Below, in pieces: positions 23,066-41,227 of a DNA stretch of 64,000 nt. How positions within the stretch are numbered: position 1 is the first letter of the stretch; each line of letters opens with the position of its first letter. The notes under the pieces are model-generated. The model was not told where the DNA came from, ran no database searches, and saw nothing but the letters and a program-made list of their open reading frames with translations. The DNA is taken from positions 1 to 64,000 of the forward strand of contig NZ_JAQUOY010000013.1 of the NCBI RefSeq assembly GCF_028716865.1, given 5' to 3'. The position numbers and the translations under genes are program-made. The stretch is from Candidatus Methylomirabilis sp. (lineage in GTDB: Bacteria; Methylomirabilota; Methylomirabilia; Methylomirabilales; Methylomirabilaceae).

Positions 23066-23404
23066 ATGCGCGTTGAAGTGAAATCGAAGACTTGGCTGGA
23101 GGCCGATGGCAAGTTCATCATCGGGGAGCACGGGATCGCGCTCCTGGAGGCGATCGATGAACTCGGGTCGATTCAGCAGGCGGCGAAACAGCTTGGGTGG
23201 GGCTATCGGCACACCTGGGGGTATCTCAAGAATATGGAGCGGAATGCCGGCGTGCCGATCCTGCTTGTTCGCCATGGAGGGCAGTCAGGCGGCGGGACGC
23301 AGCTTACACCGCAAGGGCGCAAGCTCCTACGAGACTACAAGCGATTGCAGAAGACGTTGCGGGCAACCATACAACGGAAATCGCGGTTGCTGTTCTCGTA
23401 CTAA
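23066..23404 (+). CDS. ModE-family N-terminal HTH regulator
   Basis: A 112-residue protein matching only the winged-helix DNA-binding half of ModE. The sequence GIALLEAIDELGSIQQAAKQLGWGYRHTWGYLKNME (about 26-62) and GGGTQLTPQGRKLLRDY are diagnostic. The C-terminal molybdate-binding (TOBE/Mop) domains are absent. A separate Mop protein is encoded 65 bp downstream and may supply the sensing half in trans. A ModE-like dyad lies directly upstream. Confidence 0.88.
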   Translation: MRVEVKSKTWLEADGKFIIGEHGIALLEAIDELGSIQQAAKQLGWGYRHTWGYLKNMERNAGVPILLVRHGGQSGGGTQLTPQGRKLLRDYKRLQKTLRATIQRKSRLLFSY

Positions 23405-23681: not shown

Positions 23682-24569
23682 ATGATTGGGGTCATGGGTA
23701 AGAGATGGCTGAAGAGCGCTCGTAAACGCTTTGTCGTGGGTTTGGCGGCGGTTGGCATTTTGCAGATCGCGTTGATCTGTAGCGTTCAGGCCACAAGCCA
23801 GAATGTCATTCTGGCGACGACGACGAGTACGCAGGATTCTGGTCTACTTGACGTCCTAGTTCCGCTATTTGAAAAGCGAACTGGCTACGTAGTGAAAACG
23901 ATTTCCATCGGAACCGGTCAGGCGCTTGCGTTGGGCGGTCGAGGCGAAGCCGACGTCGTCCTGGTGCATGCGCCTGAGGCTGAGAAGAGGTACGTGGCTG
24001 AGGGGACGCTCATCAACCGTCAGTTGGTCATGCACAACGATTTTATCATCGTCGGCCCGGAATCCGATCCAGCCAGGATTCGTAGTCTTCGGAAGGCGAG
24101 TGATGCGTTTCGCAAGATTGCCGAGACGAAGGCGGCGTTCGCCTCGCGCGGCGACAACTCCGGAACGCATCAACTCGAACGACGCCTCTGGAAAGAGGCG
24201 GGACTGAACCCGAACGGCGACTGGTATTTGCAATCGGGCCAGGGGATGGGGCAGACCCTCGCAATCGCGTCAGAGAAACGGGCCTATACCCTCACCGACC
24301 GTGGAACCTATCTTGCCTTGAAAAGACAGAGACGCCTCGCCCTGGACACTCTGGTCGAGCGGGACCCATCGCTCCTGAATATCTACTCGGTCATGGAGGT
24401 CAGTTCCGCCAAGCTCCCGAAGGTGAACGCTGCGGGCGGGAAGGCGTTCGCCGACTTTATGGTCTCGCCTGCGGCCCAGGAGGTCATCAAGAGTTTCGGG
24501 GCAGATAAGTTCGGTGAGCCGCTCTTCTACCCGGACGCAGGCAAACACGAGGAGGAGATTGGGCGCTAA
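23682..24569 (+). CDS. tupA: Tungstate ABC transporter substrate-binding protein TupA
   Basis: A 295-residue periplasmic binding protein with a signal peptide (about residues 1-38). The motif ILATTTSTQDSGLLDVL (TTTS at 46-49) is the TupA tungstate-binding signature, and RGDNSGTHQLERRLW is the second conserved anion-binding loop. It delivers tungstate to TupBC, which is encoded about 7 kb downstream (31437-33223) and not adjacent. It is next to fwdD-fwdB, pointing to a tungsten-dependent enzyme. Confidence 0.93.
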   Translation: MIGVMGKRWLKSARKRFVVGLAAVGILQIALICSVQATSQNVILATTTSTQDSGLLDVLVPLFEKRTGYVVKTISIGTGQALALGGRGEADVVLVHAPEAEKRYVAEGTLINRQLVMHNDFIIVGPESDPARIRSLRKASDAFRKIAETKAAFASRGDNSGTHQLERRLWKEAGLNPNGDWYLQSGQGMGQTLAIASEKRAYTLTDRGTYLALKRQRRLALDTLVERDPSLLNIYSVMEVSSAKLPKVNAAGGKAFADFMVSPAAQEVIKSFGADKFGEPLFYPDAGKHEEEIGR

Positions 24570-24662: not shown

Positions 24663-25001
24663 ATGACGAAGAGACGGTTTACGGTGATCACGGCCCGGAC
24701 GCTCACGCAAGGCCAGGCGATGCACGTCGGAAAGGAGTCGAAAGAGTATGTGGACGAGATCTCTACGGCGCGAATGAACCTCAAAGACTTCGAGGAACTC
24801 GAACTGCATGACGGGGATCGCATTCGATTAGCGACGAAGCACGGGTCAACTGTGCTGAAATGTGCAAAGGGTGATGTGCCCCAGGGGATGGTGTTCATTG
24901 CGTATGGGCGACTGATTAATCCGATTGTCGGCACGGATACCCAAGCGACCGGGATGCCGGACTACAAGGGTATCGAGGTGGAGGTGGAACGCTATGTCTG
25001 A
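24663..25001 (+). CDS. fwdD: Formylmethanofuran dehydrogenase subunit D (molybdopterin-dinucleotide-binding)
   Basis: A 112-residue protein with the six-stranded barrel typical of the C-terminal domain of molybdopterin oxidoreductases. The segment ITARTLTQGQAMHVGKESKEY, then ELHDGDRIRLATKHG and DVPQGMVFIAYGRLINPI, matches FwdD/FmdD, which clamps the pterin dinucleotide onto FwdB. The start ATG 24663 is preceded at a distance by GGAG; an upstream extension in frame is less likely. It overlaps fwdB by eight bases, a tight operon. FwdD is not part of the usual bacterial FhcABCD complex, so its presence argues for a cofactor-containing enzyme. Confidence 0.88.
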   Translation: MTKRRFTVITARTLTQGQAMHVGKESKEYVDEISTARMNLKDFEELELHDGDRIRLATKHGSTVLKCAKGDVPQGMVFIAYGRLINPIVGTDTQATGMPDYKGIEVEVERYV

Positions 25002-26364
25002 GAATGTGGCTGTAATAGACTTGAAGAAGGTGGAAGTGTTTACCGGTGTAGTCTGTCCCTTCTGCGGCACGGCGTGCGATGACATCGAAATTCGTGTCGA
25101 GGATGGAAAAATCAAGACGGTGAAGAATGCCTGTGCCCTGGGCAAGGCCACCTATATGCACTATCAAAGCGACCTGGCGACGCCAAGGATTCACGGGCAA
25201 CCCGCGACCATAGAGCAGTGCATCGATGCGGCCGCAGAGATCCTGGCCAACGCCAAGTACCCCTTGATCTATGGTCTGGACTCGACTGAGTTAAGTGCCC
25301 AGCGGAAGGCGATCGAGTTGGCGGAACTGATCGGCGCCAACATCGACCATACGTCATCGGTCTGACACGGACCAGGTCTGCAGGGTCTGCAGACAATCGG
25401 TCTTCCGACGTGCACCGTGGGAGACATCAAGAACCGGGCCGACCTCGTCGTGTACTGGGGGTCGAACCCGGCAGAGGCGCATCCGCGACATCCCAGTCGC
25501 TATGCCGTAACGGCCAAGGGGCTTTTTACCCCCTTGGGAAAAAAAGAACGGACGATCGTGACGGTCGATGTGAGACCGACTCCTTCGGCCCGGATGGCCG
25601 ATATCGCTTTCCAGATCAAGCCGAACTCCGACTATGAGGTTCTTTCCGTCCTGTTGGCGCTGGTGAAGGGTCACGAGCTGGATTGCCGTGAGGTGGGTGG
25701 AGTGGCGATCGAGGAATGGAAGGCGCTTGCAGACAAGATGAAGCAGTGCAAATTCGGGATCATCTGTTGGGGGATGGGCATCACCATGAGCCGGGGCAAG
25801 ACGATGAATGCGATCGCCATCCTGAAACTGGCTCAAGAGCTGAACCGATTCACCAAGTTTTCGGGTATGCCGATGCGTGGTCATGGCAACGTGGTGGGTA
25901 TCCAGCAGGTGCTGACCTGGCAGACCGGCTACCCTATGTCGGTCAACTTCAGCCGGGGCTATCCTCGATACAACCCGGGAGAGTTTTCAGTCGCCGACCT
26001 CGTGGGCCGCAGAGAAGTAGACGCCGCCATGATCATCGCGGCGGATGCCGTTGGTCACCTTCCCGGTAAGACCGCGGAGCATCTTCGGTCGATTCCGCTC
26101 ATTGCCATAGACCCAAAAGAGAGCGATACGACGAAGGTGGCGACGGTGGTGATTCCCGTGGCGCAGGCTGGGGTGGCTGCCGCCGGCATGCAGTATCGGA
26201 TGGATCACATCCCGCTCAAGCAGAAGGGGGTTGTCGACTCGCCCTGGCCGACGGATCGGGAGGTTGTGGAGCGGATTGTTACGAAGATTGTCGCGAAGAA
26301 GAACGGTAGGAGCGGCGTTGCCGCAGGCTTAGGGAAAGGGGGAGCAGTAAAGGGCAAGTGGTAG
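24994..26364 (+). CDS. fwdB: Formylmethanofuran dehydrogenase catalytic subunit B, selenocysteine-containing (UGA at 25363)
   Basis: Two open frames share one phase and are split only by TGA 25363-25365. Read through as selenocysteine they give one 456-residue FwdB. The N-terminus VVCPFCGTACDD plus KNAC (C21, C24, C28, C47) binds [4Fe-4S]. The UGA is residue 124 in HTSSV-U-HGPG, exactly where methanogen FwdB/FmdB has the Cys or Sec ligand of W/Mo. Downstream IKNRADLVVYWGSNPAEAHPRH continues the family without loss. FwdB catalyses reversible reduction of CO2 (via formate) that precedes formyl transfer to methanofuran. Subunits A and C and the formyltransferase are not in the window. The neighbours fwdD, tupA, mop, modABC and selA support a seleno-W/Mo enzyme. 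A nonsense mutation is the alternative, but the SECIS-like hairpin makes it unlikely. Confidence 0.9.
25376..25394 (+). promoter_or_regulatory. Bacterial SECIS element in fwdB
   Basis: A perfect 7-bp stem GTCTGCA (25376-25382) / TGCAGAC (25388-25394) encloses the loop GGGTC. GGTC begins 18 bases after the UGA, which as I recall equals the spacing in E. coli fdhF, where SelB recognises a GGUC-type apical loop. The stem-loop lies within coding sequence, as bacterial SECIS elements do. Confidence 0.82.
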
Positions 26365-26573: not shown

Positions 26574-26867
26574 GTGAACAACTCCGTGACCAAGACGGAG
26601 GCGGCCGAGACGTTCTATCATCTCGTGAGTCCAAATCTGCCTCCGTTCTGCCAAGGCACCGCCTGTTTTGTGGCGCGCCACCTCAATCCGTGGCGTTTCT
26701 CGCAAGCCGAGGCCCAATCCTCTCGCCTGAAGCCCGGCGAACTCTTCTCCACCTTTCATTCCCCGGACTTATTTCTGAACAAGGTCACCGGTCCGCACCG
26801 CGACTCGCAGGTCAAGACACCGGAATACAAGCTAACCGCGGTCCATATTGAGGCCGCGGGAACATAA
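26574..26867 (+). pseudogene. Deletion remnant of an NAD-type formate dehydrogenase operon
   Basis: The 97-residue frame appears chimeric. Residues 1-48 (FYHLVSPNLPPFCQGTACFVARHLNP) resemble the N-terminal thioredoxin-like [2Fe-2S] region of a NuoE/NuoF-type formate dehydrogenase beta subunit. Residues 50-97 (ELFSTFHSPDLFLNKVTG and TPEYKLTAVHIE) match the extreme C-terminus of a molybdopterin formate dehydrogenase alpha subunit. The simplest explanation is one internal deletion that joined the start of the beta gene to the end of the alpha gene. It stands between fwdB and the second porin in the Mo/W cluster. Recognition rests on short motifs. Confidence 0.6.
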
Positions 26868-27015: not shown

Positions 27016-28545
27016 ATGACGCAAAGAGGCTGGTGGGTTCGTGGTGCCGTCCTGGGTAGCGCCTTGCTGCTTGCCCCGGTGGGGGCGTGGGCCGATAAAC
27101 TCACGGAACTCGAGCAGGCATTTGAGACACAGCGGCAGTCGCTGCAGCAGTTGCAACAGGAGATGAACCGGCTGCGGCAAGACCGGACCGCGCAACAGGC
27201 CGAGACGGACCGGCGCGTAATGGAGGTGGAGAAGAAGGCTGCCGAGGCCGCGGCCTCGTCCCTGCTCACTGGGTATGAGCCCGGGAAAGGGTTCTTCCTG
27301 AAGTCCGCCGATGGCCAGTTCACCCTGAACTTGCGCGGCTACGTTCAGACTTGGTTCATCACGGAAGGGGCGCGACAGGAAGAAGAGTTCAACGCCGCAG
27401 ACAAGGCAGCCGGGATCGCGCGACACACCCCGAGTACCTTCAGGCAGCGCCGCACTCGGTTGATCGTGAGCGGCCAGGTCTTCAATGACTTCGGCTTCTA
27501 CATCGAGCCAGAGCTCTCCTTCGGTGGGGTTCCCGATTCCACCGGGCAAAGTACAGGCGCTGCACGGCTCGAAGCGGGCTATGTCAACTATACGTATGCT
27601 CCGTGGGCCAAGGTGACCGTCGGGCAATACAAACCCCGCTTTGGCCTCGAAATGATCACCGCCTCTACTGATCTGGACTTCGCCGAGCGAGCGGTGATCT
27701 CCAAGGCGCTGTCCCCGGACTGGCAGCTAGGCGCCACCGTCGAGGGTACTGTGAAACTGCTTCCCATACCCGTCTACTATGGAGTGGGGATCTATAACGG
27801 CTGCGGCCGGATCGATCAGTGTAAGGGCGGCATCGACAATGACGGCGATAAGGAGTTCACCGGTCGAGTGACCGTTGCCCCCCCGATGCCCTTCGGGAAT
27901 CTCACCATTGGGCTGAACGCCGATCATCGCACCTTCCGAGTCGTCAATGGGAAGGGTGCGACCGATGCAAACAGTACGACGACATCGGTCAGTGGTACCT
28001 CGTTTCACCGCTTCAACCCAGCCCAGGCGACCGGCTGGAAATTGGGGGGTGACGGGGCCGGCACGTCACAGAACGGCTTCCTGATCAACGGTAACCGCGT
28101 CACCGGCGGCGGCGATCTCGTCTTCGACTTGTACCCATTCATCATCAAGGGGGAGTACGCCTACGCCTCTCAAGAGCGTGACGCCTTGGGCGCGGGTGGC
28201 AGCAATCTCGACAACCTCATCATCCAGGGTGGCTACGGGTCGCTTGGTTACTGGCTCTTCGGTAATAAGCGGAGTGGCCTGCTGGCCATCGGCCGCTATG
28301 AGCACCTGCGGGTCGATGACAACTCAGGCGCATTTACGGCGCCTGCCTCGGCCACCAAGGAGCGGCCAATGGAGATGCGGTCCGGCACTCTCGGCCTGAA
28401 CTGGTATGTCAACCCCAGCGTCCGGCTACGGGCCAACTATCTTCTCACCGACGTCAGGCCGGGCCGGAATACGATCGGCGTGAGCAATAGCACGCACGGT
28501 GAGCTGGTGCACGAGGGGATTGCTGAGGTGCAGGTCCAGTTCTAA
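27016..28545 (+). CDS. Oxyanion-type porin (OprP/OprO family), copy 2
   Basis: A 509-residue outer-membrane porin, paralogous to the one at 9561-11054. The signal peptide (to ADK near residue 27), Gln-rich coiled coil and final QVQF are conserved. It differs mostly in residues about 90-190, including an additional loop near EPELSFGGVPDSTGQS (about 162-178), while the C-terminal third is almost identical to copy 1, which suggests gene conversion. It stands just upstream of modA inside the Mo/W cluster, so it may serve molybdate or tungstate entry; this is inference. Confidence 0.88.
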   Translation: MTQRGWWVRGAVLGSALLLAPVGAWADKLTELEQAFETQRQSLQQLQQEMNRLRQDRTAQQAETDRRVMEVEKKAAEAAASSLLTGYEPGKGFFLKSADGQFTLNLRGYVQTWFITEGARQEEEFNAADKAAGIARHTPSTFRQRRTRLIVSGQVFNDFGFYIEPELSFGGVPDSTGQSTGAARLEAGYVNYTYAPWAKVTVGQYKPRFGLEMITASTDLDFAERAVISKALSPDWQLGATVEGTVKLLPIPVYYGVGIYNGCGRIDQCKGGIDNDGDKEFTGRVTVAPPMPFGNLTIGLNADHRTFRVVNGKGATDANSTTTSVSGTSFHRFNPAQATGWKLGGDGAGTSQNGFLINGNRVTGGGDLVFDLYPFIIKGEYAYASQERDALGAGGSNLDNLIIQGGYGSLGYWLFGNKRSGLLAIGRYEHLRVDDNSGAFTAPASATKERPMEMRSGTLGLNWYVNPSVRLRANYLLTDVRPGRNTIGVSNSTHGELVHEGIAEVQVQF

Positions 28546-28757: not shown

Positions 28758-29600
28758 ATGCTGCGGGGCGATCGAGAGACAATCCGACCGGGCTGGCGCT
28801 TACGCTTACCTGGTTACGCAACGAAGGGTTGGCTGTTAGGTCTCCTGACGGTCATTGCGTGGTTTACCATCGCATCTGCGGCGTCGAAGCAAGAGTTGCT
28901 GATTTCCGCCGCGATCAGCCTGAAGGAGCCGCTGCAAGAGATTGGCGCGCTGTTTGAACAACGCCATCCAGAGGTGAAGGTGATTTTCAACTGGGGCGCC
29001 TCCGGCGCGTTGCAGCAGCAGATCGAGCGTGGCGCTCCAGTAGATGTGTATGTCTCCGCCGCGTCGAAACAGATGGACGAGCTCGAGGCTAAGGACCTTC
29101 TGCTCAATGAAACCCGGCGTACACTTGCTGCTAACCTGCTGGTCCTGATCACATCTTCTACTCTTCGGTCCGATTTCGCTTCCTTCAAAGATTTGACGAA
29201 GTCAGGGGTCAAGCTGATCGCCATCGGCAACCCACGGACTGTCCCTGCTGGAGGGTACGCGCAGGCGGCCCTGATGAGTCTTGGGTTGTGGGATTCGCTG
29301 CAACCGAAGCTGATCTTCACAGAGAATGTTCGTCAGGCTCTGGCCTACGTCGTACGAGGCGAGGTCGAAGCCGCCCTGGTCTATGCCACCGACGCGCAGA
29401 GCGCCGGCGAAGCGGTCCAGGTGGCCGTCGCCCCACTGGAGGGGAGTGCTCCGCCGATCTTGTACCCGATCGCCGTGGTCAGGACCTCAAAACAAAGCCA
29501 AGAGGCCAGGGCCTTCGTTGATCTGACGCTGAGCGAGGCGGGCCAGCGGATCCTAAGGGCTCATGGGTTCCTGCCGCCGCCAAAGGTCCTGGCTCGCTGA
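28758..29600 (+). CDS. modA: Molybdate ABC transporter substrate-binding protein ModA
   Basis: A 280-residue periplasmic molybdate/tungstate binder. The signal segment is about residues 24-43. The motif LLISAAISLKEPLQEIGALFE, then FNWGASGALQQQIERGAPVDVYVSAA, is the ModA signature that holds the oxyanion. It is followed directly by modB and modC, forming a complete importer. The predicted N-terminus is longer and more basic than usual, so a later start is possible. Confidence 0.94.
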   Translation: MLRGDRETIRPGWRLRLPGYATKGWLLGLLTVIAWFTIASAASKQELLISAAISLKEPLQEIGALFEQRHPEVKVIFNWGASGALQQQIERGAPVDVYVSAASKQMDELEAKDLLLNETRRTLAANLLVLITSSTLRSDFASFKDLTKSGVKLIAIGNPRTVPAGGYAQAALMSLGLWDSLQPKLIFTENVRQALAYVVRGEVEAALVYATDAQSAGEAVQVAVAPLEGSAPPILYPIAVVRTSKQSQEARAFVDLTLSEAGQRILRAHGFLPPPKVLAR

Positions 29601-29648
29601 AGGGGACGGTCAGGACGCGAGACCGCCTCTCATGAAACGAGGACAGCC

Positions 29649-30311
29649 ATGACTCAAATCCCACTGTCCCCCCTGTTTCTATCGTTGAAGATCGCCGGCT
29701 TGGCAACAGTGGCTACGCTTCTTATCGGCACTCCGATTGCGTGGATGCTGGCGCGAGGCCGTTTTCCAGGCAGGGCAGTCCTGGAATCGATCGTAGTGGT
29801 CCCGCTGATTCTGCCTCCTACCGTAACTGGCTACTATTTGCTGCTGTTGATTGGCCGACAAGGACTGCTGGGACGTCTTCTGGAGCAAGGGCTGAATATC
29901 GGCATTATCTTCACCTGGAAGGCCGCCGTTCTCGCCTCGACCATCGCCGCGTTGCCGCTGTTCATTAAGGCCGTCCAGGGTGCGTTCGAAGGAATCGACC
30001 GCCGGATCGAGGATGCGGGTCGAACGTTCAGACCTGCCGTGATCGTGCTGTGTACCATCACCCTTCCCCTGGCGTGGCGGGGCATCTTGGCAGGGTCGAT
30101 CCTGGCTTTTGCCAGGGCCATGGGAGAGTTCGGGATGACGCTGATGATTGCCGGAAGCATCCCGGGGCGGACCCAGACGCTTGCCCTCGCGATTTACGAC
30201 GCGGTCCAGGCAAATCAGCCGCAGGAGGCGAATGCCCTGTCGATCCTGGCGACGGCCACCGTGCTGCTGATCCTCGTGTTGGTCGGTCGGATGACGAAGG
30301 TCAAATACTGA
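29649..30311 (+). CDS. modB: Molybdate ABC transporter permease ModB
   Basis: A 220-residue inner-membrane permease with five or six helices. VVVPLILPPTVTGYYLLLLIGRQG and the EAA-type loop IEDAGRTFRPAVIVLCTITLPLAWRGI with FARAMGEFGMTLMIAG are typical of ModB. It overlaps modC by one base (TGATG), implying coupled translation. Confidence 0.95.
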   Translation: MTQIPLSPLFLSLKIAGLATVATLLIGTPIAWMLARGRFPGRAVLESIVVVPLILPPTVTGYYLLLLIGRQGLLGRLLEQGLNIGIIFTWKAAVLASTIAALPLFIKAVQGAFEGIDRRIEDAGRTFRPAVIVLCTITLPLAWRGILAGSILAFARAMGEFGMTLMIAGSIPGRTQTLALAIYDAVQANQPQEANALSILATATVLLILVLVGRMTKVKY

Positions 30312-31436: not shown

Positions 31437-32135
31437 ATGGAGCTGATCTGGCAAGGCATCAAGCAGGCTATTCTATTGCTTGTTCACGGCGACCCGGAGG
31501 TGCTGCGGATTATGCTGCTTTCGCTGCAGGTCTCGGGGACCGCGACCCTGCTTAGCCTGCTGATCGGCATCCCCCTTGGCACCGTCTTGGCTCTAAGCCG
31601 CTTTCCTGGGCGGAGCATTGCCATCAGCCTGGTTAATACCGGGATGGGCTTGCCGCCGGTCGTGGTTGGTTTATTCGTGAGCATCTTCCTCTGGCGGAGT
31701 GGGCCGCTTGGCTTTCTGGAGTTGCTTTACACGCCGACTGCCATTGTCCTCGCCCAACTCGTGATCGCCGGCCCGGTTGTCACGGGCCTTACGGTGGCCG
31801 CCGTTCAGCAGTTGAACCCGCGACTGTGCCTGCAACTCGTGGGGCTTGGTGCGTCGAGGCTTCAGGTCGTGTACCTCCTCCTCAAAGAGGCGCGCCTGCC
31901 GCTCCTGGCTGCGCTGATGGCCGGCTTCGGTGCGGTCATCTCCGAGATCGGCGCCTCCATGATGGTGGGCGGCAACATCTACCGGCAGACGCGGGTACTC
32001 ACCACCGCCACTGTCCTGGAAACCAGTAGGGGGAATTTCGACATGGCGATTGCGCTCTCTCTCCTGCTGTTGCTCCTGACCTTCGGCGTGAACGTGACCC
32101 TTACCTGGATTCAGCAACGGGGACGGACACCGTGA
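31437..32135 (+). CDS. tupB: Tungstate ABC transporter permease TupB
   Basis: A 232-residue permease. VNTGMGLPPVVVGLFVSIFLWRSGPLG and LVGLGASRLQVVYLLLKEARLPLLAALMAGFGAVISEIGASMMVGGNI match TupB-type (WtpB/TupB) permeases rather than ModB. A GGAGGAG site precedes ATG 31437. It overlaps the tupC start by four bases (GTGA). Its binding protein TupA is encoded 7 kb upstream in the same cluster. Confidence 0.92.
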   Translation: MELIWQGIKQAILLLVHGDPEVLRIMLLSLQVSGTATLLSLLIGIPLGTVLALSRFPGRSIAISLVNTGMGLPPVVVGLFVSIFLWRSGPLGFLELLYTPTAIVLAQLVIAGPVVTGLTVAAVQQLNPRLCLQLVGLGASRLQVVYLLLKEARLPLLAALMAGFGAVISEIGASMMVGGNIYRQTRVLTTATVLETSRGNFDMAIALSLLLLLLTFGVNVTLTWIQQRGRTP

Positions 32136-33223
32136 GCGGGCCGATACTCTGCCTCGACAGGGTCACAGTGACATACGACGGCATACCGGTCCTGGACGCG
32201 CCGTCATTTGAGGTCCAGGAGGGGCAGATCCTGGCCGTCATCGGCCCAAACGGGGCCGGCAAATCGACACTGCTTCGACTCCTCGGATTTTTGGAGCGTC
32301 CTACTGAAGGACGCGTCCTCTTCAGGGGTCAGTCGGTCCAGCCGTATAGCAATCTGCTAATGGTCCGTCGCCGCATGGCCAGTGTCTTTCAGGAGCCATT
32401 GCTGACTGATGGAACCGTGGAGGCAAATGTGGCCCTCGGGCTCAGGCTCCGACGCGTCGATTCGGCCGAGGTCAGCAGGCGCGTTCAGGAAAGCATGGGC
32501 ACCCTTGGCATCGGGCATCTGGCCAGACGGCGGACCCGAACCCTTTCGGGCGGCGAGGCTCAAAGGGTGAGCCTGGCGCGGGCCCTGGTCCTCGATCCGG
32601 AGGTCTTCCTGCTTGATGAGCCGTTCGCCGCCCTGGATCCGCTGACTCGCGAGGGGCTACTGGTTGACCTCAAGGCGATTCTCGACAAGAGACGGATCAC
32701 GACGATCTTTGTGACGCACGATCGGAACGAGGCGTTGGCGCTTGGCAATCAGGTCGCTGTCATGATTGGTGGGCGGGTATTGCAGGTGGACATGCCTGAG
32801 CGGGTCTTTACCGAGCCTATCAACGAGGAGGTGGCCCGTTTCGTCGGTATTGAAACGATCCTCCGCGGCCATGTACAGTCCATCAGCCAGGGACTCGCTA
32901 CCGTCGAGGTCCCGGGGTGGGCGCTGGAAGTGGCAGCGCCGTTGACGCCGGGGGAGCGCGTGCTGGTCTGCCTCAGGCCGGAGGAGATCACGCTCTTCCC
33001 TCGCGGGGTAACCCTGACTACCTCCAGCGCGCGGAATCAGTTCTACGGGCGGGTGATCCGCCACCTGCCGGCTGGCTCCACCTTTCGGGTAACGATCGAC
33101 TGCGGTGTCCTGATCGTGGCGACAATCACCCGGCAGTCGTGGGAGCAACTCGGCCTGCAGGACGGGGTCGAGGTTGTTGCCGCATTCAAAGCAACCGCTC
33201 CCCATATCATCCGCTGCGCCTGA
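32132..33223 (+). CDS. tupC: Tungstate ABC transporter ATP-binding protein TupC
   Basis: A 363-residue ATPase starting at GTG. Walker A GPNGAGKSTLLRLLGFLERPT, the signature LSGGEAQRVSLARAL and Walker B VFLLDEPFAALDP are intact; GEAQR is usual for tungstate transporters. The C-terminus (about 235-360) contains TOBE-like oxyanion-binding sequence. Two Mo/W ABC systems in tandem imply separate handling of tungstate and molybdate. Confidence 0.92.
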   Translation: MSGPILCLDRVTVTYDGIPVLDAPSFEVQEGQILAVIGPNGAGKSTLLRLLGFLERPTEGRVLFRGQSVQPYSNLLMVRRRMASVFQEPLLTDGTVEANVALGLRLRRVDSAEVSRRVQESMGTLGIGHLARRRTRTLSGGEAQRVSLARALVLDPEVFLLDEPFAALDPLTREGLLVDLKAILDKRRITTIFVTHDRNEALALGNQVAVMIGGRVLQVDMPERVFTEPINEEVARFVGIETILRGHVQSISQGLATVEVPGWALEVAAPLTPGERVLVCLRPEEITLFPRGVTLTTSSARNQFYGRVIRHLPAGSTFRVTIDCGVLIVATITRQSWEQLGLQDGVEVVAAFKATAPHIIRCA

Positions 33224-33432: not shown

Positions 33433-33681
33433 ATGGAAGAGACGGAGGCGCAACTCTTTGCTCGTCTCAGGGAGGAGCATCCGGAGTTCCAGCGGCTGGC
33501 CGAGAAGCACCGAGAATTTGATCAGAAGATCAGCGAGTTTGACCGAATCTATTACCTGACGAGCGAGCAGGAGCGAAAGCGGAAGGAACTACAGAAGCTG
33601 AAGCTGACGATCAAAGACCAGATGCATGTGATTATGCATCAATATCGGCGCAACCATACGCCGGCTACGTCCCAAAAATGA
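33433..33681 (+). CDS. YdcH/DUF465 family small coiled-coil protein
   Basis: An 82-residue, highly charged helical protein. [23 protein letters not shown] and the later [21 protein letters not shown] form the two-helix hairpin of the DUF465 (YdcH) family, whose function is unknown. A strong GAGGAGG site lies before the ATG. Its stop overlaps moaC by four bases, so it is cotranscribed with it. Confidence 0.85.
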
Positions 33682-34175
33682 AGCGGCTGACTCACATCGA
33701 CCGACACGGCCAGGCCCGCATGGTCGATATCAGTGAGAAGGATGAAACCAGGCGGGAGGCCGTAGCCGGCGGTACAGTTACGATGCAGCCCGAGACCCTT
33801 CGTATGATCCAGAAAGGAAGAGTCCCGAAGGGCGATGTCCTGGCCGCTGCCAGGCTTGCCGGGGTCATGGCGGCAAAAAGGGTGCCCGACCTCATTCCAC
33901 TCTGTCATTCTCTCCTGCTCTCCAGCGCCGAAGTCGAGTTCACGCCGGTCGAGGAAGCCGGGCGCCTCGACATCGAATCCCGGATCAAGGTCACGGGCCG
34001 AACCGGAGCAGAAATGGAGGCCCTCACCGCTGTGGCGATGGCAGCCCTGACCATCTATGACATGTGCAAGGCGGTGGACAAGGAGATGGTGATCGGCTCA
34101 ATCCGTCTGATCGCCAAAACGGGGGGGAAGAGCGGGGTGTATCGTCGGCCTGGCGAGAACGGAGTCGAGGGCTGA
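33678..34175 (+). CDS. moaC: Cyclic pyranopterin monophosphate synthase MoaC
   Basis: MoaC, 165 residues, completes the first step of molybdenum-cofactor synthesis after MoaA. The motifs [18 protein letters not shown] (about 16-33), [17 protein letters not shown] (about 73-89) and the active-site region [24 protein letters not shown] are all present. It supplies the pterin needed by FwdBD and other Mo/W enzymes. Other moa genes are not in the window. Confidence 0.97.
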
Positions 34176-39811: not shown

Positions 39812-41227
39812 GTGGATAATCGGGCCAGACTGTTGCTCAGACAACTTCCCTCGGTCGATGAGATCTTGCAGGAGCCGTCGATCCGAGAGACGGTTCAGAC
39901 GCTGCCGCGCTGGGCGGTCATTGAGGCGATCCGAGAGGTGTTGGAGCGTTGGCGGCGAATGATCACCACCGGGCAGTCCGAATCGACGCCGGCCGATCTG
40001 CCGTCCAGGGCCGCTCTGGTTGCCGAGGCGCAGCGGATCGCGCTGCGGCTGAATCGGCCGGCCCTGCGGCGTCTCATTAACGCAACAGGTGTGGTCATTC
40101 ATACGAACCTCGGTCGCGCCCCGCTTGCCGAGGTCGGTATCGAGCGCATGGTCGAAGTGGCTCGGGGGTACTCGAACCTGGAGTACGACCTTGAACGGGG
40201 GGACCGGGGGTCCAGGCAGGCCCATGTGGAGCGGCTCTTATGCCGCCTTACGGGGGCCGAGGCCGCACTTGCGGTGAACAACAATGCGGCGGCGGTGCTG
40301 CTGGCTATTAATACGCTGGCCGAGGGGAAGGAGGTCATCGTCTCGCGTGGCGAGTTGGTGGAGATCGGCGACTCGTTTCGGATTCCCGATATCATGCGCC
40401 GCGCTGGCGGCATCCTGCGAGAAGTGGGAACTACCAACCGAACCTATCTGAGAGATTACGAGGACGCGATCGGGACGGCGAGCGCGATGCTGCTGAAGGT
40501 TCACACCAGCAACTTCCGAATCCAGGGCTTTGCCAGCCAGGTTCCTATAGCCTTATTGGCGAGCCTGGGCGAGAAGACCGGCCTTCCGGTAGTAGAAGAC
40601 GTGGGCAGCGGTGCCCTCGTCGATCTGTCACAGCTCGGGCTTTCCAAGGAGCCGATGCCTTCGGAGAGCATCCGCGCCGGAGCAGACCTGGTGACCTTCA
40701 GCGGAGACAAACTGCTGGGAGGACCTCAGGCAGGCCTGATCGCGGGGAAGCGACTGCTGGTCGAGAAGCTCCGCCGCAATCCGCTGGCGCGTGCCGTGCG
40801 GATCGACAAGCTCACGCTGGCTGCCTTGGAGGCGACGTTGCGCCTTTACCTCGATGAGGGGCAAGCCTTTTCCCACGTTCCGGTGCTCCGAGCGCTTGCC
40901 ATGCCGCTTCAGGAGATCGAGCAGCGAGCCGAGCGTCTGTGCGACCGTATCGCCACGCTCGCCTCGGGTCATCTTGAGGTCTCTGTTATCGAAGGTACCT
41001 CGGAGGTCGGTGGTGGCGCGCTGCCCCTCGAGTCGATCCCGACGCGACTGGTGGCCGTACAGGCCGCCCATCTGACCGCACCGGTCTTGGAGGGACGCCT
41101 GCGCCGGACCGACCCGCCGGTGATGGTTCGGATCAAGGACGATCGGATCATCCTGGACCCTCGCACCGTCTTGGAAGATGAGCTGGACACACTGGCCAAC
41201 CTAGTGGCCTCGGTTGCAGTGCCGTAG
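39812..41227 (+). CDS. selA: L-seryl-tRNA(Sec) selenium transferase SelA
   Basis: SelA converts seryl-tRNA(Sec) to selenocysteyl-tRNA(Sec) with selenophosphate. The N-terminus LLLRQLPSVDEILQEP is typical, RLINATGVVIHTNLGRAPL is the family signature, and FSGDKLLGGPQAG holds the PLP lysine near residue 300. GTG 39812 gives 471 residues; an in-frame TTG at 39794 would add six residues. It is the first gene of a run with tmk, holB, ricT, metG and tatD. Its presence is required if the UGA in fwdB encodes selenocysteine. selB, selC and selD are not seen here. Confidence 0.96.
   Translation: MDNRARLLLRQLPSVDEILQEPSIRETVQTLPRWAVIEAIREVLERWRRMITTGQSESTPADLPSRAALVAEAQRIALRLNRPALRRLINATGVVIHTNLGRAPLAEVGIERMVEVARGYSNLEYDLERGDRGSRQAHVERLLCRLTGAEAALAVNNNAAAVLLAINTLAEGKEVIVSRGELVEIGDSFRIPDIMRRAGGILREVGTTNRTYLRDYEDAIGTASAMLLKVHTSNFRIQGFASQVPIALLASLGEKTGLPVVEDVGSGALVDLSQLGLSKEPMPSESIRAGADLVTFSGDKLLGGPQAGLIAGKRLLVEKLRRNPLARAVRIDKLTLAALEATLRLYLDEGQAFSHVPVLRALAMPLQEIEQRAERLCDRIATLASGHLEVSVIEGTSEVGGGALPLESIPTRLVAVQAAHLTAPVLEGRLRRTDPPVMVRIKDDRIILDPRTVLEDELDTLANLVASVAVP

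Follow-up and report, generated by a model that had tools for sequence, protein, structure and literature searches.

A predicted selenocysteine-containing isoform of formylmethanofuran dehydrogenase subunit B in 'Candidatus Methylomirabilis'

In the genome of 'Candidatus Methylomirabilis' sp. (NC10; contig C13 of G000, 2.54 Mb in total; all other G-numbers are comparison genomes) we have identified a bacterial gene for formylmethanofuran dehydrogenase subunit B (FwdB) with an in-frame UGA at 25363, which, to judge from sequence comparison, is almost certainly read as selenocysteine (Sec). Together with its partner FwdD, the product would probably form a selenium- and tungsten- or molybdenum (W/Mo)-dependent isoform that is decoded by SelA, SelB, SelC and SelD and shares FwdA and FwdC with the main enzyme. 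The central features are located as follows in the window, i.e., the whole stretch of 64,000 nucleotides that was analysed:

24663-25001, + strand: fwdD, molybdopterin dinucleotide binding domain (NF042908 FwdD, E=1e-24, below cut-off; Pfam PF01568 above cut-off)
24994-26364, + strand: fwdB with predicted Sec at residue 124, UGA read through (frame, TIGR03129, orthologues, dN/dS, alignment)
25363-25365, + strand: TGA codon of predicted Sec124, corresponding to M. wolfei FwdB Cys118, which binds W/Mo (TGA in 6/6 orthologues)
25376-25394, + strand: bSECIS-type hairpin GTCTGCAG-GGT-CTGCAGAC, 8 bp, loop GGU, 18 nt past the UGA (fold and model check)

As an earlier, sequence-only reading of this DNA had stated, 24994-26364 (+) is a single open frame except for the TGA at 25363-25365, and its two halves share one phase. 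The read-through protein scores 536 bits with TIGR03129 (cut-off 328), covering positions 2-421 of the 421 in the profile, and shares ~46.6% identity with the structurally characterised FwdB of M. wolfei (PDB 5t5i). The proposal that the UGA occupies the Cys/Sec ligand position was borne out by alignment with archaeal FwdBs: codon 124 pairs with Cys118 of Methanothermobacter (M. wolfei) FwdB, the protein ligand of W/Mo. Likewise, C21, C24, C28 and C47 align with the four N-terminal [4Fe-4S] cysteines C9, C12, C16 and C35 of the M. wolfei protein, and H125, R295 and H297 with H119, R288 and H290. Altogether, the protein retains 80 of the 85 residues that are invariant in the metal-ligand FwdBs of archaea and bacteria, archaea being represented by four PDB chains and an Asgard locus. 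Identification as a formate dehydrogenase (FDH) alpha subunit was rejected, as FDH model cut-offs were not reached in one chain (TIGR01591, 74 bits against a cut-off of 666), and so was identification as FhcB, as the 24994-26364 protein carries both the Sec ligand and His125.

Orthologues 83-92% identical at the protein level are found in five further genomes of the genus. All six copies that cover codon 124 (G000, G025, G021, G026, G032 and G034, the last present only from residue 114 onward) have TGA there and none has another sense codon, the outcome of the search in related genomes that the sequence-only reading had proposed. A sequencing error or chance was rejected, given the recurrence of the TGA in these orthologues and the low dN/dS on both of its sides. 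Only a C-terminal piece of the gene is present in G033 and, 80% identical, in the record of 'Candidatus Methylomirabilis sp. Ru_enrich_MO2'. The ligand codon is TGC or TGT in all Cys paralogues examined. Estimates of dN/dS are 0.05-0.12 upstream of the UGA (0.27 for the close pair G025/G021) and 0.05-0.14 downstream; by this measure purifying selection is alike before and after the codon.

The hairpin was compared with a published bSECIS model that demands a loop of 3-9 nt with G in the first two positions, a stem of 4-16 bp, a distance of 16-37 nt from the UGA and a minimum free energy (MFE) of at most -7.5 (PMC13188914). In five of the six orthologous copies, including the present one, a stable hairpin satisfies the model (3-nt loop beginning with G, 8 bp, spacing 18), and in G032 one U-C mismatch interrupts the 8-bp stem. 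The check by itself is weak, being passed also by 47% of synonymous resamplings and by 6 of 11 Cys paralogues. The MFE is unexceptional (10% of the resamplings are equally stable), and the case for the hairpin therefore rests on synonymous constraint: codons 127-134 show the lowest synonymous variation among 425 eight-codon windows (permutation p ~0.002), a dip that the Cys paralogues lack at the hairpin codons (rank 147 of 424). Two substitutions, S128G and A131G, replace residues that are Ser and Ala, respectively, in all 16 comparison FwdBs by Gly in all Sec copies. Both codons fall inside the hairpin or on its border, and codon 131 (GGT) forms the loop itself. As both Sec-specific Gly codons coincide with it in this way, the protein sequence seems to have yielded to the RNA at these positions. 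An Rfam scan of the window at gathering thresholds returned one tRNA and nothing else.

The machinery for Sec insertion is complete in this genome, with the first component encoded in the window:

39836-41206, + strand: selA, L-seryl-tRNA(Sec) selenium transferase (TIGR00474, 604 bits, cut-off 268)

Genes selB, selC and selD, whose absence the sequence-only reading had named as a possible refutation, are located on contigs C28, C1 and C3, respectively. With these genes, the conserved UGA and the full-length TIGR03129 match, its central claim of a bacterial FwdB selenoprotein is supported. The selD gene (L080, G000:C3:103676-104599) has its own UGA at the usual Sec site (GAG-U-ACK) and thus represents a second selenoprotein of G000. 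Across the genus genomes, selB was found in 15/15 and selC in 13, including some that lack Sec-FwdB; FwdB alone is therefore not what maintains the machinery. In G031, G034, G033 and G026, a second tRNA-Sec-like gene of 98 nt with UCA in the anticodon loop (1501-1598 of L094, L095, L096 and L097) precedes the Cys fwdB operon by ~2 kb. It scores 54-58 bits on RF01852, above the cut-off, and ARAGORN calls no tRNA-SeC there; no second copy above the RF01852 cut-off was detected in G000 or G025.

Two other interpretations of the codon are both highly improbable. One takes the UGA as a true stop in a decayed copy or split gene, a loss that would be tolerable beside the intact Cys paralogue of the same genome. 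It conflicts, however, with the recurrence of the same UGA and of low downstream dN/dS in several species, at dS up to ~0.9, with the absence of any further internal stop ahead of the C-terminal end, and with the overlapping RNA constraint at the hairpin codons; the pseudogene reading was rejected. The other, just as hard to credit, has the UGA read through by a different route, e.g., with insertion of Trp or Cys. Read-through does not by itself name the residue, but the full Sec machinery, the UGA-type selD, a ligand position known to be occupied by Sec or Cys and the SECIS-type hairpin all point to Sec.

Besides fwdD, which overlaps the fwdB start by 8 nt and is 82-95% identical to its counterparts at four further Sec loci, the Sec gene is surrounded by the following genes, several of them for tungstate or molybdate uptake:

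23066-23404, + strand: winged-helix regulator of ModE/LysR type, 112 aa, limited to the DNA-binding domain (TIGR00637 ModE_repress, E=3e-23, below cut-off; Pfam HTH_1)
23682-24569, + strand: TupA-like binding protein of a tungstate ABC transporter, encoded upstream of fwdD (NF041772 TupA, E=8e-65, below equivalog cut-off)
26574-26867, + strand: remnant ORF in which the N-terminus of an FDH diaphorase subunit runs, across an internal deletion, into an FdhA C-terminus (blastn against intact G025 genes; Pfam of the intact genes)
27016-28545, + strand: porin, Porin_O_P (Pfam)
28758-30311, + strand: modA and modB, molybdate transport (TIGR01256, TIGR02141, above cut-offs)
31437-33223, + strand: TupB-like permease and WtpC-like ATPase (NF041773, NF040840, below equivalog cut-offs)
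33678-34175, + strand: moaC, molybdenum cofactor synthesis (TIGR00581, above cut-off)

These profile matches agree with the earlier observation that FwdD and Mo/W uptake genes are retained. Among five Sec loci examined, a TupA homologue precedes fwdD-fwdB in all (75-85% identity in the four other genomes), molybdate transport genes follow in four, and each has a porin gene beside fwdDB, between or downstream. The fwdDB pair of G025 is followed by genes for a diaphorase and an NAD-type FdhA, and G021 is without these two genes. Compared with G025 (L067:9995-14131), the remnant in the window carries a deletion of ~3.8 kb, at whose junction 5 bases overlap. The FDH genes were rejected as a constant part of the Sec-FwdB system, being present in G025 and absent or broken elsewhere.

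The sequence-only reading missed a Cys paralogue (TGC) in the same genome, encoded at C3:44269-45624 and 68% identical to Sec-FwdB. This gene belongs to a complete H4MPT operon in the order fae, mtdB-like, fwdD, fwdB, fwdA, ftr, fwdC, mch and mptN-like, and a Cys FwdB accompanies Sec-FwdB in every genome that has the latter. The one fwdA of G000 is located in the Cys operon, and neither fwdA nor fwdC adjoins the Sec pair. Genomes of the genus have one fwdA each (split over two contigs in G027), except that none was detected in the fragmented G033. No electron-transfer subunit (FwdF/G-like) was seen beside the Sec or Cys operon. Since the H4MPT operon has its own Cys FwdB together with the only FwdA, the Sec gene is to be regarded as an isoform. 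The earlier proposal of a Se- and W/Mo-dependent enzyme at the CO2/formate end of the methanopterin pathway would thus apply to an isoform and not to the main pathway enzyme.

From these data, a function can be proposed. The SelA/B/C/D route and the in-frame downstream hairpin would insert Sec at UGA 25363, and FwdB and FwdD would form a bis-MGD W/Mo formate/CO2 module with Sec124 as metal ligand, as suggested by full-length homology and conserved active-site residues. Because no fwdA or fwdC adjoins the Sec gene, the module would most likely dock on FwdA and FwdC of the H4MPT operon, where it might replace or supplement the Cys FwdB-FwdD pair when tungstate or molybdate and selenium are available, and the formyl group would be oxidised to CO2 (or the reverse) during methane or C1 oxidation. 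Sec insertion, W/Mo binding, redox activity, reaction direction, regulation and the sharing of FwdA/FwdC are each what we infer from the genes. The complete picture, in which methane-oxidising NC10 bacteria keep one FwdA/FwdC core and, depending on how much metal and selenium is available, alternate on it between a Cys and a Se/tungsten FwdB-FwdD, with a bacterial SECIS that evolved inside the gene, is put forward as tentative.

Sec-FwdB and FwdD could instead make up an enzyme of two subunits that is independent of FwdA and acts as a formate dehydrogenase or CO2 reductase, in effect an FDH split in two, an option that we consider unlikely. The separation of fwdA and fwdC from the Sec pair would fit such an enzyme, as would the diaphorase and NAD-type FdhA genes after fwdDB in G025 and the FDH-like structure of the methanogen FwdBD module (PMC11656701). 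However, the G025 FDH carries a catalytic subunit of its own, no FDH genes follow fwdDB in the other loci, that of the window being a deletion remnant, and the 80 of 85 retained residues are those invariant in FwdA-associated FwdBs. An isoform sharing FwdA and FwdC with the main enzyme therefore remains the preferred reading.

In a tree of 29 rows the five Sec copies cluster in a single clade (100/99), the Cys FwdBs of the order are its sister group (92/85), and both together are separate from archaeal FwdB (96/99); branches are long and deeper placements unsure. Sec-FwdB was found in 7 of 10 pmoA-bearing genomes of the genus and in none of the 5 that lack pmoA (chance 0.019, ignoring relatedness), four of these five negatives being genomes only 80-83% complete.

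Selenoprotein reviews attribute Sec-FwdB to methanogens (PMC13188914, PMC2933860), and one source gives a Methanopyrus reference alone (PMC9312934); no statement on a bacterial Sec-FwdB was found in the open-licence papers searched. Bacterial FwdB as such is documented, with 149 bacterial representatives (PMC10100899) and Cys118 in that of Hakuba Actinobacteria (PMC7325909). Redox-competent bacterial Cys FwdB is already published (PMC10100899, PMC7325909), and selenium is the new point. The closest parallels are the Sec/Cys pairs of Methanopyrus kandleri (FwuB) and Methanococcus maripaludis (FwuB/FwdB) (PMC2933860, PMC11097638), in which FwdB likewise has Sec as metal ligand and the motif U-H-x-P, and a Cys isoform is encoded in the same genome. 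Unlike these, the 'Ca. Methylomirabilis' copy is bacterial and clusters with Cys FwdBs from its order, and its hairpin follows the UGA in frame, whereas archaeal SECIS elements are mostly in the 3' UTR (PMC13188914); the decoding signal must therefore be of bacterial origin. In methanogens, the selenium supply decides between the Sec and the Cys isoform (PMC11097638), and a similar switch may exist here. Two further kinds of FwdB, those encoded in the H4MPT operon of Methylomirabilis/CSP1-5 and those of Hakuba Actinobacteria (PMC6094997, PMC7325909), are also bacterial and keep the [4Fe-4S] and metal-ligand residues, but their ligand is Cys and their genes are part of fwdDBA-ftr-fwdC operons, which include fwdA. 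The alpha subunit of bacterial Sec formate dehydrogenase shares the Sec ligand, the U-H motif and bacterial decoding, but is one longer chain, and FwdB here stays far below the FDH cut-offs.

A bacterial Sec version would mean that selenium is used at the CO2/formate site with bacterial decoding, and would make selenium and tungsten or molybdenum part of what carbon flow depends on in nitrite-dependent methane oxidisers. A comparison of 2018 described extra formate dehydrogenase loci of M. oxyfera as minor expressed (PMC6094997). With fwdB split, the G025 locus amounts to five ORFs (fwdD, two fwdB halves, diaphorase and FdhA), of which the last two are missing in G021, and for this reason one of these extra loci may be the Sec-fwdDB locus; given their minor expression, flux through Sec-FwdB may be small. 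Because standard gene callers would split the frame at the UGA, the gene may have been counted in M. oxyfera proteomes and transcriptomes as fragments or as part of an FDH locus. Published enrichment media already contain SeO2 (PMC6094997), which makes Sec-FwdB directly testable.

FhcB of the bacterial formyltransferase/hydrolase complex is a homologous subunit, but lost the metal ligand and the His and serves as a scaffold, with formate released (PMC10100899). The statement of the sequence-only reading that the ligand is lost proved correct for the relatives examined (Gemmatimonadota, Methyloversatilis), which lack the His and in which T, S, F, A or P occupies the position where Sec124 aligns with the archaeal Cys ligand. 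The N-terminal Cys motif, retained in Sec-FwdB as had been noted, does not separate FwdB from FhcB, as these relatives keep its first three cysteines. In addition to a Cys FwdB, G008 has, 35 kb off, a FwdB homologue (45% identical) with Phe as ligand (L076, G008:C2:358000-376000), and further FwdB-like copies with open frames, 42-46% identical, are encoded at G023:C140:6532-7821 and G010:C19:2162-3217.
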